Source: Acetobacteraceae bacterium (GTDB taxonomy: Bacteria; Pseudomonadota; Alphaproteobacteria; Acetobacterales; Acetobacteraceae). From it: a stretch of DNA of 62,829 nt. Shown here piece after piece: positions 12,451-15,956 of this stretch. A program made the position numbers and the translations under genes. The stretch is taken from the NCBI GenBank assembly GCA_025354865.1, contig JANXMB010000020.1, positions 1 through 62,829 of the forward strand, written 5' to 3'. Each line of letters begins with the position of its first letter. Position 1 is the first letter of the stretch. The notes under the pieces are model-generated. The model did no database searches, was not told where the DNA came from, and was given only the letters and a program-made list of their open reading frames with translations.

Positions 12451-13200
12451 ATGCGATTTCTGCTCCTTGCCTGGGCACTGCTGCTGCCGTTCGCGGCCGG
12501 GGCAGAACCGCTGACGGTAATGGCCGCTGCCAGCCTCACCGATTCGATGAAGGATATGTCTATCTTTTGGGAGAAATCCGGGCATAAACCGTTGCAAATG
12601 TCGTTCGGCGCCAGTTCCACCCTGGCGCGCCAGATCGAGCAAGGGGCGCCGGCCAATCTGTTTGCCTCGGCGGACGAAAAATGGATGGACTACCTGGCAG
12701 ATCGTAAACTGATCGCGCCGGATACCCGCAAATCGCTCCTGGGCAACACGGTCGTTCTGGTGGTTCCTATCGGCAAACCCCGCACCGTCGCCATTGCGTC
12801 CGGCTTCGACCTTCTCTCCCTGCTCGGCGTCGATGGGCGACTGGCGGTGGGCGATCCCTCCCATGTGCCGGTGGGCATTTATGCCGAACAGGCGCTGAGG
12901 AAACTGGGGCTTTGGGACGGCATCGTACCGCGTTTGGCACGCACCGAAGACGTCCGAGCGGCGTTGCGTTTCGTGGAATTGGGGGAAGCGCCGGTCGGCA
13001 TCGTCTACGCGACGGATGCCGCGATTTCCAAAGGTGTCAGCATCGCCGGCGTGTTTCCGGAAGGCAGCCACGATCCGGTTACCTATCCATTTGCGGTAAC
13101 CAAGGCCGGCGACACAGCCGAAGCCCGCGCCTTCATGGCATTCCTGACGACCGCCCCGGCGCGGGAGGTATTCCAACGCCGGGGTTTCAAGGTCGAGTAA
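12451..13200 (+). CDS. modA: Molybdate ABC transporter substrate-binding protein (orphan)
   Basis: 249 residues with an N-terminal signal peptide (MRFLLLAWALLLPFAAGAEP, cleavage after AGA). The mature protein starts LTVMAAASLTDSMKDM and continues with FGASSTLARQIEQGAPANLFASAD and GDPSHVPVGIYAEQAL, the order of oxyanion-contacting segments in ModA (Ser and Tyr ligands). It should bind molybdate or tungstate in the periplasm for a ModBC transporter. No modB or modC is in the window; the next gene is convergent aroG, only 4 bp away. A GAAAGG precedes the ATG. It may serve a permease encoded elsewhere or bind a different oxyanion. Confidence 0.88.
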   Translation: MRFLLLAWALLLPFAAGAEPLTVMAAASLTDSMKDMSIFWEKSGHKPLQMSFGASSTLARQIEQGAPANLFASADEKWMDYLADRKLIAPDTRKSLLGNTVVLVVPIGKPRTVAIASGFDLLSLLGVDGRLAVGDPSHVPVGIYAEQALRKLGLWDGIVPRLARTEDVRAALRFVELGEAPVGIVYATDAAISKGVSIAGVFPEGSHDPVTYPFAVTKAGDTAEARAFMAFLTTAPAREVFQRRGFKVE

Positions 13201-13204
13201 CGGT

Positions 13205-14566
13205 TTACTCCGCCGCCAACGGCAGCGCCCCGGTCCGGCTCTGTCGCATGGCATCGGCTACGAGAAACGCCAGTTCCAACGCCTGCGATCCGTTCAACCG
13301 GGGATCGCAGAGCGTGTGATACCGCGCTTCGAGGCCCGCATCGTCCAGACCCTCGGCCCCGCCGGTGCATTCGGTCACGTCTTTGCCGGTCATTTCGACG
13401 TGGATGCCGCCGGGGTGGCTGCCCTCGGCCCGATGGATGGCGAAGAATGCCCGGATTTCCGCCAATATCCGCGCGAAAGGCCTGGTCTTACGCCCGCTCG
13501 GTGTCGAAATGGTATTGCCGTGCATGGGATCGGACACCCAGCCGACAACCCGTCCCTCCCGCTGCACGGCGCGGATCAAGGCTGGCAGATTGTCGCCCAA
13601 AGTCGCCTCCCCCATCCGGCAGATCAGGGTCATGCGCCCCGCCTCGTTCGTCGGGTTCAGAATGTCGAGCAACCGCAGCAAATCGTCCGGTTGCAGCGAC
13701 GGGCCGCACTTCATCCCGATCGGGTTCCGCACCCCGCGCAGATATTCGACATGCGCATGGTCGTGCTGCCGGGTGCGATCGCCGATCCACAGCAGATGCG
13801 CCGAGCAGCCGTACCAGTCGTCGGTAAGGCTGTCCTGACGGGTGAGGGCTTCCTCGTAGGGCAGCAGAAGCGCCTCATGGCTGGTGTAAAGATCCACGGT
13901 CCGCATGGACGGCGAGTCGATCCCGCATGCCGCCATGAACGCCATCGACTCGCCAATGCGGCGGGACAGCGCGGTGTAGCGTTCGCCCTGCGCCGATGCC
14001 GCGACGAATTCCTGGTTCCATTGCTGTACCAGCCGCAGATCGGCGAACCCGCCCTGGGCGAAGGCGCGCAGCAGATTCATCGTGATGGCCGACTGGCTGT
14101 AGGCGCGTGCCATGCGGCCGGGATCGGGAATGCGGGCTTCGGGCGTGAAGGCGTCGCCATTGACGATATCGCCACGGTAGGACGGTAGGCTGACATCGCC
14201 TTGTTTTTCGAAATCCGATGAGCGTGGCTTGGCGAATTGCCCGGCCATGCGGGCCAGTTTCACCACCGGCATGGCCCCTCCGTAGCTCAGCACCACAGCC
14301 ATTTGCAGCAGCACTTTGACCGAATCCCGCACGTTGTTGGCGTGGAACTCCCCGAAGGATTCGGCGCAGTCGCCGCCTTGTAGCAGGAATGCCTCCCCCA
14401 GTGCGACTTTCGCGAGCGCCGCTTTCAGCGCCCGTGCTTCGCCGGCGAAGATCAGAGGCGGCATGCCGCGCAAATTGTCCTCGGCCGCTGCGAGCGCCGC
14501 CTGGTCGGGGTACGCCGGCATCTGCTTGATCGGCAGATTGCGCCAGGTTTGGGGTGTCCAGGTCAT
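13205..14566 (-). CDS. aroG: 3-Deoxy-7-phosphoheptulonate synthase, class II
   Basis: 453 residues, first enzyme of the shikimate pathway, condensing phosphoenolpyruvate and erythrose 4-phosphate. Class II (plant/actinobacterial type) is clear from [68 protein letters not shown] and [18 protein letters not shown], which include the metal Cys, His, Glu and Asp ligands and PEP-binding Arg/Lys. The start at 14566 has AAGGAG upstream; an in-frame ATG 51 bp earlier lies between the terminator and this site and lacks one. The leader region upstream carries a transcription attenuator (see the 14635-14794 entries), so expression is probably tuned by charged aromatic tRNAs. The gene name follows common usage for this class. 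Confidence 0.96.
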
Positions 14567-14634
14567 CGTGGGCTCCTTGGGTAAAAGGGGAGCCGACCAA
14601 TCCGGGCGGAAATTCACATTTGCCGATAACGCTG

Positions 14635-14666
14635 AAAAAGCAAAAGCCGCCTGGGTTGGGCGGCTT
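14635..14666 (-). terminator. Intrinsic terminator acting as aroG attenuator (3:4 hairpin)
   Basis: Read on the minus strand, AAGCCGCC (14659-14666) pairs perfectly with GGCGGCTT (14644-14651) around a 7-base loop and runs into a T-rich tract (TTTTGCTTTTT, ending near 14635). This is a standard Rho-independent terminator, but it lies upstream of aroG, about 70 nt before its ATG and 28 nt after the stop of the aromatic leader peptide. The 5' arm can instead pair with GGCGGT at 14698-14703 (2:3 antiterminator), and that segment can pair with ACCGC at 14715-14719 (1:2). The three pairings exclude each other as in trp-type attenuators. Confidence 0.85.
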
Positions 14667-14693
14667 CGGAAGGTTGCTTATGCGCGCACTATC

Positions 14694-14759
14694 CTAGACC
14701 GCCGGGCTGTACCAGCGGTACCAAAATCGTGCGACGGGGATAAGCAGCGTGCGGTGCAT
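14694..14759 (-). CDS. Aromatic leader peptide of the aroG attenuator
   Basis: A 21-codon frame, ATG 14759 to TAG 14694, encoding a peptide whose residues 12-17 are FWYRWY. Four of six codons in that stretch are Trp or Tyr and one is Phe, so the ribosome would stall when Trp-, Tyr- or Phe-tRNA is scarce, which matches the end products controlled by aroG. The codons Tyr14-Arg15 overlap region 1 (14715-14719), and Ala20-Val21 overlap region 2, so a stalled ribosome frees region 2 for antitermination, while one reaching the stop masks it. No Shine-Dalgarno sequence is visible; a promoter-like sequence ends a few bases before the ATG, so the transcript may be leaderless. The peptide itself is likely without function. 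Confidence 0.82.
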   Translation of the reverse strand: MHRTLLIPVARFWYRWYSPAV

Positions 14760-14766
14760 GGCAGTA

Positions 14767-14794
14767 GTTAGACACGGGTCGCCGCCGCACGCAA
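14767..14794 (-). promoter_or_regulatory. Candidate promoter for the aroG leader
   Basis: On the minus strand TTGCGT (14789-14794) and TCTAAC (14767-14772) are 16 bases apart, weak-to-fair matches to -35 and -10 boxes. The predicted start point falls on or next to the A of the leader ATG at 14759, giving a leaderless mRNA. This agrees with the absence of a ribosome binding site and with the known leaderless start of trpL in Sinorhizobium meliloti. It is sequence inspection only, and other placements in 14770-14890 are possible. Confidence 0.35.
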
Positions 14795-14897: not shown

Positions 14898-15956
14898 ATG
14901 CGCGCTGCGATCGACTGCGATATCCATCCCGGCGTGCCCGATATTCGGGCGCTGCTGCCCTACATGTCGGAATTCTGGCAGGAATCGTTTGTCGCACGCG
15001 GGCTCGACGGTTTCGACCCCATGAGCTACCCGCTCAATGCCCCGCTAACCTGCCGCCCGGACTGGCGTATCCCTGGGGAGCGTCCCGGGGGCAACCTCGA
15101 CGCGATGCGCAGCCAGATACTGGATAAATTCGGCATCGGCCTCGCCATTTGCAACCCGCTGACCGGCGGCCAACTCGCCGTTTCCGAATCCATGGGCGCC
15201 GCCATCTGCTCGGCTGTCAACGACTGGATCGTCGAGCACTGGCTGAACAAGGAACCCCGGTTGCGCGCATCGATCGTCGTGCCGGCCCAGGCGCCGCTGC
15301 TGGCTGCCGAGGAAATCGAACGCTGCGCGCCCGATCGCCGCTTCGTTCAGGTGCTGCTGCCCGTCGCATGCGAAATGTTGCTGGGTCGCAGCTATTATCT
15401 GCCGATTTACGAGGCCGCTGCTCGCCATAACCTGCCGATCGGCATCCATGCCGGCAGCATGTTCCGCCACGCGCCGACTTCGACCGGTTGGCCGTCGCAC
15501 CATCTGCACGATTACGTCGCGCACAGCCAAAGTTTCGAAGATCAGCTTCTGAGCCTGACCACGAACGGCATTTTCAACCGTTTCCCCGATCTGAAATTCG
15601 TGTTCATCGAATCCGGGGTGACGTGGTTGCCGAGCTATATTTGGCGGGCGATCAAGACGTGGCGGGGGGTGCGGGCGGAGGTCCCTTGGATGAAGCGCTC
15701 CCCGGCCGAAATCGTGCGCGAGAATATCCGTGTCACCATGCAGCCATTCGATTGCGTCGACGACGCCGATACGGTGCAACGCCTGATGGAGCAGATCGAT
15801 TCCGATCGCATGCTGCTGTTCTCGTCGGATTATCCGCATTGGCAGTTCGAGGGCGATGCCATCCTGCCGCCTGGATTGTCCGCTGCGCAAATTCAACGAA
15901 TACAATGCGACAATCCTCGGGAAACCTACCCCCGCTTACAGGAGACCGCGCCATGA
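14898..15956 (+). CDS. Amidohydrolase (COG2159 family)
   Basis: 352 residues, cytoplasmic, with AAGGGAG upstream of the ATG. The TIM-barrel metal-dependent hydrolase/decarboxylase fold is shown by IDCDIHPGVPDIRALLPYM (D-x-H metal ligands), LPIGIHAGSMFR (His), RFPDLKFVFIESGVTWLPSY (Glu in the FxE.G.x.W motif) and LLFSSDYPHWQ (Asp-x-Pro-His). Members decarboxylate or hydrolyse aromatic or heterocyclic acids. Its stop overlaps the next amidohydrolase start as ATGA, so the two are translated together and may form a heteromer or act in sequence. It diverges from the aroG leader. Confidence 0.88.
   Translation: MRAAIDCDIHPGVPDIRALLPYMSEFWQESFVARGLDGFDPMSYPLNAPLTCRPDWRIPGERPGGNLDAMRSQILDKFGIGLAICNPLTGGQLAVSESMGAAICSAVNDWIVEHWLNKEPRLRASIVVPAQAPLLAAEEIERCAPDRRFVQVLLPVACEMLLGRSYYLPIYEAAARHNLPIGIHAGSMFRHAPTSTGWPSHHLHDYVAHSQSFEDQLLSLTTNGIFNRFPDLKFVFIESGVTWLPSYIWRAIKTWRGVRAEVPWMKRSPAEIVRENIRVTMQPFDCVDDADTVQRLMEQIDSDRMLLFSSDYPHWQFEGDAILPPGLSAAQIQRIQCDNPRETYPRLQETAP

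Follow-up and report, generated by a model that had tools for sequence, protein, structure and literature searches.

A predicted transcription attenuator with a mixed Phe-Trp-Tyr leader peptide in front of class II DAHP synthase, or of a small open reading frame, in Acetobacteraceae and other Alphaproteobacteria

INTRODUCTION

Ahead of a gene for class II DAHP synthase, the first enzyme of aromatic amino acid synthesis, in an Acetobacteraceae bacterium lies a frame of 21 codons in which five aromatic residues fall within six codons. Is this frame the leader peptide of a transcription attenuator, which amino acids would such a leader read, and which gene does it serve? The locus lies in a stretch of 62,829 nucleotides (contig JANXMB010000020.1 of assembly GCA_025354865.1), called the window here, and a preliminary description of it had proposed an attenuator of the trp type. 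Transcription attenuation itself is textbook knowledge. The leaders trpL and pheL of Escherichia coli follow a four-region logic, with control codons over region 1 and a terminator with a U tract, and the same layout is found here.

We consider it very probable that the locus is a ribosome-mediated transcription attenuator responding to uncharged Phe, Trp or Tyr tRNA. The sequence shows the leader, its conservation, pairings able to form and to exclude one another, promoter-like signals and the target gene; from these we infer where transcription starts, that the ribosome stalls, that the RNA switches in vivo and how the device responds to each of the amino acids.

RESULTS

The elements named in the preliminary description all lie where it had placed them, on the minus strand, and the gene downstream is indeed a class II DAHP synthase. 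The features of the locus are as follows.

14789-14794, minus strand: -35-like hexamer TTGCGT, from the sequence
14765-14770, minus strand: -10-like hexamer TAACTA, after an 18-nt spacer and 5 nt 5' of the leader ATG
14694-14759, minus strand: leader ORF of 21 codons, MHRTLLIPVARFWYRWYSPAV and a stop codon; ATG at 14759-14757, TAG at 14696-14694
14709-14726, minus strand: control codons TTT TGG TAC CGC TGG TAC, Phe-Trp-Tyr-Arg-Trp-Tyr
14712-14727, minus strand: region 1, ATTTTGG.ACCGCTGG, from the fold; conserved in leader alignment A2
14691-14705, minus strand: region 2, CCGGCGGTCTAGGAT; partner of region 1, or of region 3 through GGCGGT
14659-14667, minus strand: region 3, GAAGCCGCC, containing AAGCCGCC at 14666-14659
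14643-14651, minus strand: region 4, GGCGGCTTT, containing GGCGGCTT at 14651-14644
14635-14645, minus strand: T-rich tract of the intrinsic terminator, with TTGCTTTTT at 14643-14635
14643-14667, minus strand: terminator hairpin with T-rich tail
14573-14578, minus strand: Shine-Dalgarno sequence AAGGAG of aroG
13205-14566, minus strand: aroG, class II DAHP synthase, 453 amino acids (PF01474, 679.8 bits, E 1.7e-204)

The core elements ACCGC (14719-14715) and GGCGGT (14703-14698) had been given as regions 1 and 2; their positions are correct, but both regions are longer in the fold, where 14727-14712 pairs with 14705-14691. The stop codon had been said to abut region 2 and lies in that area, but in the fold it falls within the region 2 arm. 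AAGCCGCC, a loop, GGCGGCTT and TTGCTTTTT make up an intrinsic terminator, which is followed by a gene of the same pathway, that for the class II DAHP synthase. Between regions 2 and 3, AAGCAA at 14679-14674 (minus strand) lies outside the main pairings, and its GCA is kept in most rows of alignment A1.

Read as an attenuator, the locus would work in the following way. RNA polymerase would begin at or beside the leader AUG. Under poor charging of Phe, Trp or Tyr tRNA, the leading ribosome would stall at codons 12 to 14, over region 1; region 2 could then pair with region 3, the terminator formed by regions 3 and 4 would be blocked, and aroG would be transcribed. With all three tRNAs charged, the ribosome would reach the stop codon within region 2, regions 3 and 4 would pair, and transcription would stop before aroG. 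Were the leader left untranslated, the 1:2 and 3:4 pairings would form together and transcription would again stop.

Folding bears this out in part. The whole leader folds at -53.9 kcal/mol, compared to -37.8 ± 3.5 kcal/mol in 200 shuffles (z -4.7), and the terminator folded alone also exceeds its shuffles (z -3.4), but two fragments do not exceed theirs, one holding regions 1 and 2 (z -0.3) and one running from region 2 through the terminator (z -0.8). In seven leaders, including that of the window, folds that omit region 1 or region 2 give the antiterminator and the terminator: when the folded stretch begins at the last Tyr codon and ends with region 3, region 2 GGCGGT pairs with region 3 GCCGCC, and when it begins after region 2, the terminator forms. 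Mean energies are -15.6 kcal/mol for 1:2 and -16.2 kcal/mol for 3:4 (89 rows), and -16.1 kcal/mol for 2:3, compared to -9.4 kcal/mol with a shuffled region 3 (84 rows with a recognized region 2). The alternative 1:2, 2:3 and 3:4 pairings of the trp type, as proposed for the window, are kept in the predicted folds wherever genomes of the genus have the leader. Of 95 rows, 89 have a terminator with a T-rich tail. Among the other six, L167, L168, L179 and L206 are real misses; the remaining two are L165, a false row, and L205, whose sequence is too short.

Compensatory changes, which had been suggested as a check, did not appear. No double change that keeps a pair was seen at any of 19 pairs (RNAalifold, A1, 17 rows), and exchanging region 3 between leaders left the energy nearly flat (-15.9 compared to -16.1 kcal/mol), with no signal of co-evolution; because of these two results we do not claim covariation. 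By eye, and uncounted, arms in other families have changed and still pair.

The leader was sought in relatives with a covariance model, R1, built from 17 leaders. It matches in 28 of 33 genomes of the genus, the window's own among them, with best E values from 8.6e-29 to 8.2e-21, and 14 of these 28 had given a sequence to the model; G002, G016, G022, G023 and G025 have no R1 match. The expected conservation is thus seen in most of the genus but not in all of it. Among 385 genomes of the class, 75 matched at E ≤ 0.01 and 11 at E < 1e-6. The 11 strong genomes fall in six families by handle (f1, f37, f51, f56, f122 and f145), and seven of them were new to the model. A second model, R2, trained on all 11, returns the same 11 from the class at E ≤ 1.6e-14. 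Applied to 398 genomes of the phylum, R2 gave 36 matches at E ≤ 1e-4, and the only strong ones, G000 and G071, are both in the model. Spread outside the Alphaproteobacteria was considered and rejected: seven of the other matches, L243, L244, L245, L246, L249, L250 and L258, were inspected and resemble plain terminators. L244, a weak R2 match, has a weak aromatic frame.

Named genomes were also scanned with the pattern CGN TTY TGG TAY CGN TGG TAY, which fixes the peptide and leaves the codons free, and at least 119 stretches were found. At least 78 loci among the 119 matches listed are leader-like, and all 78 use CGA, TTT and CGC despite the synonyms that the pattern allowed; the remaining 41 matches listed mix their codons and appear to be fortuitous. 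Four long ORFs of the window seldom use CGA or TTT (9 CGA compared to 106 CGC, and 11 TTT compared to 69 TTC). The bearers among the matches listed include Azospirillum, Roseomonas, Neoroseomonas, Belnapia, Paracraurococcus, Caldovatus, Dongia mobilis and two Sphingomonas. Since R1 finds the leader in 28 of 33 genomes of the genus and the scan codons are uniform, the run is not due to chance. From these sources 94 distinct leaders were collected, most of them among the pattern-scan matches listed; L165, a long frame with no terminator, and repeats were dropped, and L074 and L231 lie outside the set, as the search expression covered only some variants.

These observations bear on the plainest alternative, in which the hairpin acts simply as a terminator, or else controls translation, and the small ORF with its aromatic run arose by chance. 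Terminators of the form GCCGCC...GGCGGC are common, and both R1 and R2 match such ordinary terminators elsewhere from E 1.2e-7 on; the poor folding of the two leader fragments also fits this reading. We give it hardly any weight, however. The long ORF that is the upstream neighbor of the leader is divergent (14898-15956, plus strand), so that none of its transcript has to end on the minus strand. The aroG Shine-Dalgarno sequence begins 57 nt after the end of the T tract, and conservation covers the aromatic frame, the codons used in it and its spacing from region 2.

If the locus is an attenuator, the next matter is what it senses. The core of the 94 leaders reads RFWYRWY in 84, a count biased upward because most leaders came from the scan that requested that peptide; the others are RFWYRRY (3), RYFTRWY (3), RFWYCWY (2), RFYDRWY (1) and RYFGRWF (1), and L074 has RFYGRWF. 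The geometry is retained in other families with the altered aromatic runs RYFTRWY, RFYDRWY, RYFGRWF and RFYGRWF. Counted from the first aromatic codon, region 2 GGCGG lies 23 nt away in 87 of the 94 leaders and 26 nt away, an extra codon, in the other 7. In the window F12, W13 and Y14 start 23, 20 and 17 nt before region 2 GGCGG, and W16 and Y17 just 11 and 8 nt before it. In the E. coli trp leader, a ribosome stalled about 17 to 20 nt before region 2 frees it, and a nearer one would cover it. Given this spacing and the E. coli leader, codons 12 to 14 are expected to do the sensing, and a ribosome stalled at W16 or Y17 would be expected to cover region 2 itself.

It is plausible that one leader integrates Phe, Trp and Tyr through the triplet of codons 12 to 14. 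A narrower form of the attenuator reading is that fewer than three amino acids are sensed, either because only stalls at codons 12 to 14 free region 2 or because one residue dominates, with W16 and Y17 serving the pairing of region 1. We hold this reading at somewhat short of an even chance. The short distances of W16 and Y17 favor it, as does the variation at these positions (of 94 leaders, 3 have Arg at codon 16 and 2 have Cys at codon 15); four other families lack Trp in the first triplet (YFT, FYD, YFG or FYG), and Tyr is stated to be without effect in the Corynebacterium glutamicum aroR leader, in the part of that account available (PMC11802643). It sits badly with the retention of FWY in 27 of the 28 genus genomes with the leader, which were found by the model and not by a peptide pattern; such retention would be odd if only one of the three residues mattered. 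The exception, G012, carries a natural variant (L231) with a stop codon directly after RFW, and its downstream FDFDV ORF is retained.

Upstream of the leader, boxes resembling a promoter recur among the 90 leaders with enough sequence there. TTG[CA] is found at -35 in 67 of the 90 (2.5 in shuffles), TAnnnT at -10 in 46 (2.6 in shuffles) and both in 36 (0.08 in shuffles), and in 35 of these 36 the gap from the -10 box to the ATG is 6 or 7 nt. The -10 box of the window is poor, matching two of the three fixed positions with a gap of 5 nt. Only 2 of the 90 leaders have a word resembling a Shine-Dalgarno sequence ahead of the ATG. Because the boxes lie close to the ATG and such words are almost absent, these data suggest that the leader mRNA is leaderless, as in Sinorhizobium meliloti, where the partial account available has the trpL transcript beginning at its ATG (PMC7298713).

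A leader mRNA that is probably leaderless and a core whose nucleotides are conserved would also be consistent with a different role, in which the chief product would be the terminated short RNA or the peptide of the leader, working in trans, and read-through would be secondary. The part of the S. meliloti account available offers a precedent in rnTrpL and peTrpL (PMC7298713). We regard this as improbable. The next gene is the small ORF (82) or aroG (9) in all 91 leaders with enough sequence, the small ORF lies at 106 to 152 nt from the leader stop (72 counted) with a word resembling a Shine-Dalgarno sequence in 79 of 79, and the leader codons upstream of the core look unconserved by eye. An attenuator acting in cis on the gene behind it remains the reading that we prefer.

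That gene is most often not aroG. Class II DAHP synthase had been taken as the target, and it is in the window, but it is a minority target, and most of the relatives found have a small ORF next. The ORF has the pattern M..[FY]DFDV[IV]xGP with a Pro-rich tail and is the next gene in 82 of 91 distinct leaders, most of them among the scan matches listed; 3 of the 94 are too short downstream. DFDV lies within the first 22 residues in 79 of 91, and three more are variants: L154 has DFDV after a longer start, L189 has FDWDV and L129 has DYDV. The length is 17 to 71 codons, plus three of 255 to 266.

Among 37 close pairs, which are not independent, the codons with a single change comprise 189 synonymous and 102 non-synonymous cases, and changes fall at the third codon position in 304, the first in 174 and the second in 135. 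Such a prevalence of synonymous and third-position changes is what a translated protein under selection would show. The invariance of DFDV is not evidence by itself because these columns served to find the ORF; the GP that follows was not used in the search, and its G is kept in 58 of 72 and its P in 61 of 72. Six examples gave no Pfam or NCBIfam family at E ≤ 10, one example matched no plasmid record, and no paper in the literature searched contains the motifs of the ORF. From its sequence, the ORF looks like an undescribed protein family.

The three longer proteins, of 255 to 266 amino acids, carry the FDFDV motif at the N terminus and lie behind the same attenuator (L135:860-1639, L164:6445-7242 and L207). 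Two of the three were scanned, L135 and L164, and both match SBP_bac_11 (PF13531), with no signal peptide evident by eye. The window also has a ModA-like ORF (12451-13200, plus strand; PF13531), convergent with aroG and with an apparent signal peptide at its start; among 21 loci compared it is present only in L001 (the window), L003, L004, L005 and L008. A link between it and the L164 fusion was considered on the basis of the shared PF13531 and rejected, as the two have no BLASTP similarity.

Nine leaders have no intact small ORF, namely L001 (the window), L003, L004, L029, L106, L047, L051, L069 and L073, and aroG follows in all nine. With the strict pattern DFDV.[ILV].GP, which does not detect variants, nine genomes of the leader-then-aroG kind, one of them 64% complete, gave no copy, and four other genomes gave one each. 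Among the matches listed, aroG lies within 700 nt in 15 of the 78 leader-like loci and not in 50; the other 13 are too short. In the genus, the element adjoins class II aroG in 16 of 28 genomes, and 11 of these have the small ORF in between; G000, G015 and G028 lack it, and in G013 and G031 it has decayed. The other 12 have the element elsewhere, always before a small ORF (in G012 read by eye).

Seen from the side of aroG, a leader and terminator lie within 420 nt upstream in 15 of 58 class II loci (L002 to L059; L004 by its terminator and core) and not in 43, so that class II aroG genes of the class usually do without the device, which is no general feature of them. A further class II aroG in the genome of the window (G000:C94), 66% identical, has no such leader. 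We mapped the attenuator on a tree of 69 class II DAHP synthase proteins, with 26 rows bearing it and 42 lacking it (L012 was omitted since its upstream part is cut off). Presence and absence require four changes, gains or losses, all forced by well-supported branches, one of the four depending on the long-branched L044. The attenuated groups are the window's clade with L103, L113-L160, a group of f56 and f122, and two within the other aroG lineage of the genus.

Within the window's clade the small ORF differs in length, with 48 codons in L010, 21 in L009 and 17 to 20 in L005-L008; L001, L003 and L004 lack it and have aroG directly behind the leader. An AAGGAG matching the aroG Shine-Dalgarno sequence sits 5' of the small ORF in relatives such as L005. 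In this clade the small ORF thus appears to have gone missing, with aroG in its place and using its ribosome-binding site. From these sequences, aroG may have been recruited by an older device and the small ORF then lost; for both steps, the direction of change is what we infer.

DISCUSSION

The preliminary description had set this leader apart on the premise that trp attenuators sense one amino acid. That premise is incomplete, as leaders mixing several amino acids are already known (ilvGMEDA and the C. glutamicum aroR). The E. coli trpL and pheL leaders do differ from the present one in sensing one amino acid each. The window has no Rfam match at the gathering threshold, and in a lax search the best scores were 23.6 of 55 bits for rnk_pseudo, 20 of 43 for P9 and 16.6 of 55 for Phe_leader (RF01859).

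The aroR leader of C. glutamicum was reportedly described by Neshat et al. in 2014. According to the portion of a later source available, aroR, with a Phe-Tyr-Phe leader, precedes the operon of the DAHP synthase gene aroF, and availability of Tyr is without effect (PMC11802643). Both are ribosome-mediated attenuators of a DAHP synthase with more than one aromatic amino acid in the leader; aroR differs in belonging to the Actinobacteria, in having no Trp, in its lack of response to Tyr and, as far as that portion goes, in the absence of any mention of a small ORF. DAHP synthase under a mixed aromatic leader is thus already known, as are multi-amino-acid leaders. The E. coli ilvGMEDA leader, whose peptide of 32 amino acids has 15 branched-chain residues in the section of the source available (PMC6123439), is alike in being rich in several end products of linked pathways and differs in that these are branched-chain. 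The S. meliloti trpL-trpE(G) system shares the class Alphaproteobacteria, the start at the leader ATG and, in the same partial account, two exclusive RNA structures (PMC7298713); it differs in sensing Trp and in its target, trpE(G).

No paper in the literature searched contains FWYRWY, and none of the papers listed describes such a device in Alphaproteobacteria in its title or the start of its abstract, although the 2004 survey of Proteobacteria by Vitreschak et al. may list it. The passages available held nothing on DAHP synthase or aroG in PMC2965389 and nothing on DAHP synthase in PMC1262725.

Other aromatic leaders were seen along the way. A leader MNLTGHQNRFWYVFYPTPLAPVGTRSA, ending in a stop codon, and a terminator precede a class I DAHP synthase (G372, L077; PF00793, E 1.4e-85), as an independent mixed leader. 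Leaders ending in NAWYFTPLT and a stop, with a terminator, precede a GNAT protein in L277 (G314) and L275 (G392), with PF00583 found for the G314 copy, and one ending in PWYFTLHT and a stop, with a terminator, precedes a small ORF with a sub-threshold S4 match (L271, G407). The leaders of G372, G314, G392 and G407 suggest that mixed aromatic leaders arose more than once.

The older job of the attenuator may have been to make the small protein, with its Pro-rich and probably disordered tail, under aromatic shortage, the protein being a regulator of aromatic supply that possibly acts on class II DAHP synthase. We offer this tentatively, as a possibility to which we do not incline. If the small protein does regulate aromatic supply, that would account for lineages with the ORF and aroG in tandem, and for others in which the ORF has decayed or gone and aroG itself follows the attenuator.

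With at least four changes of the attenuator on the aroG tree, the device appears to have been re-used or shed. The small ORF comes with a predicted inducing condition, which would make its function directly approachable. If the leader reads all three amino acids, its Phe, Trp and Tyr in three consecutive codons would offer a compact natural test of signal integration.
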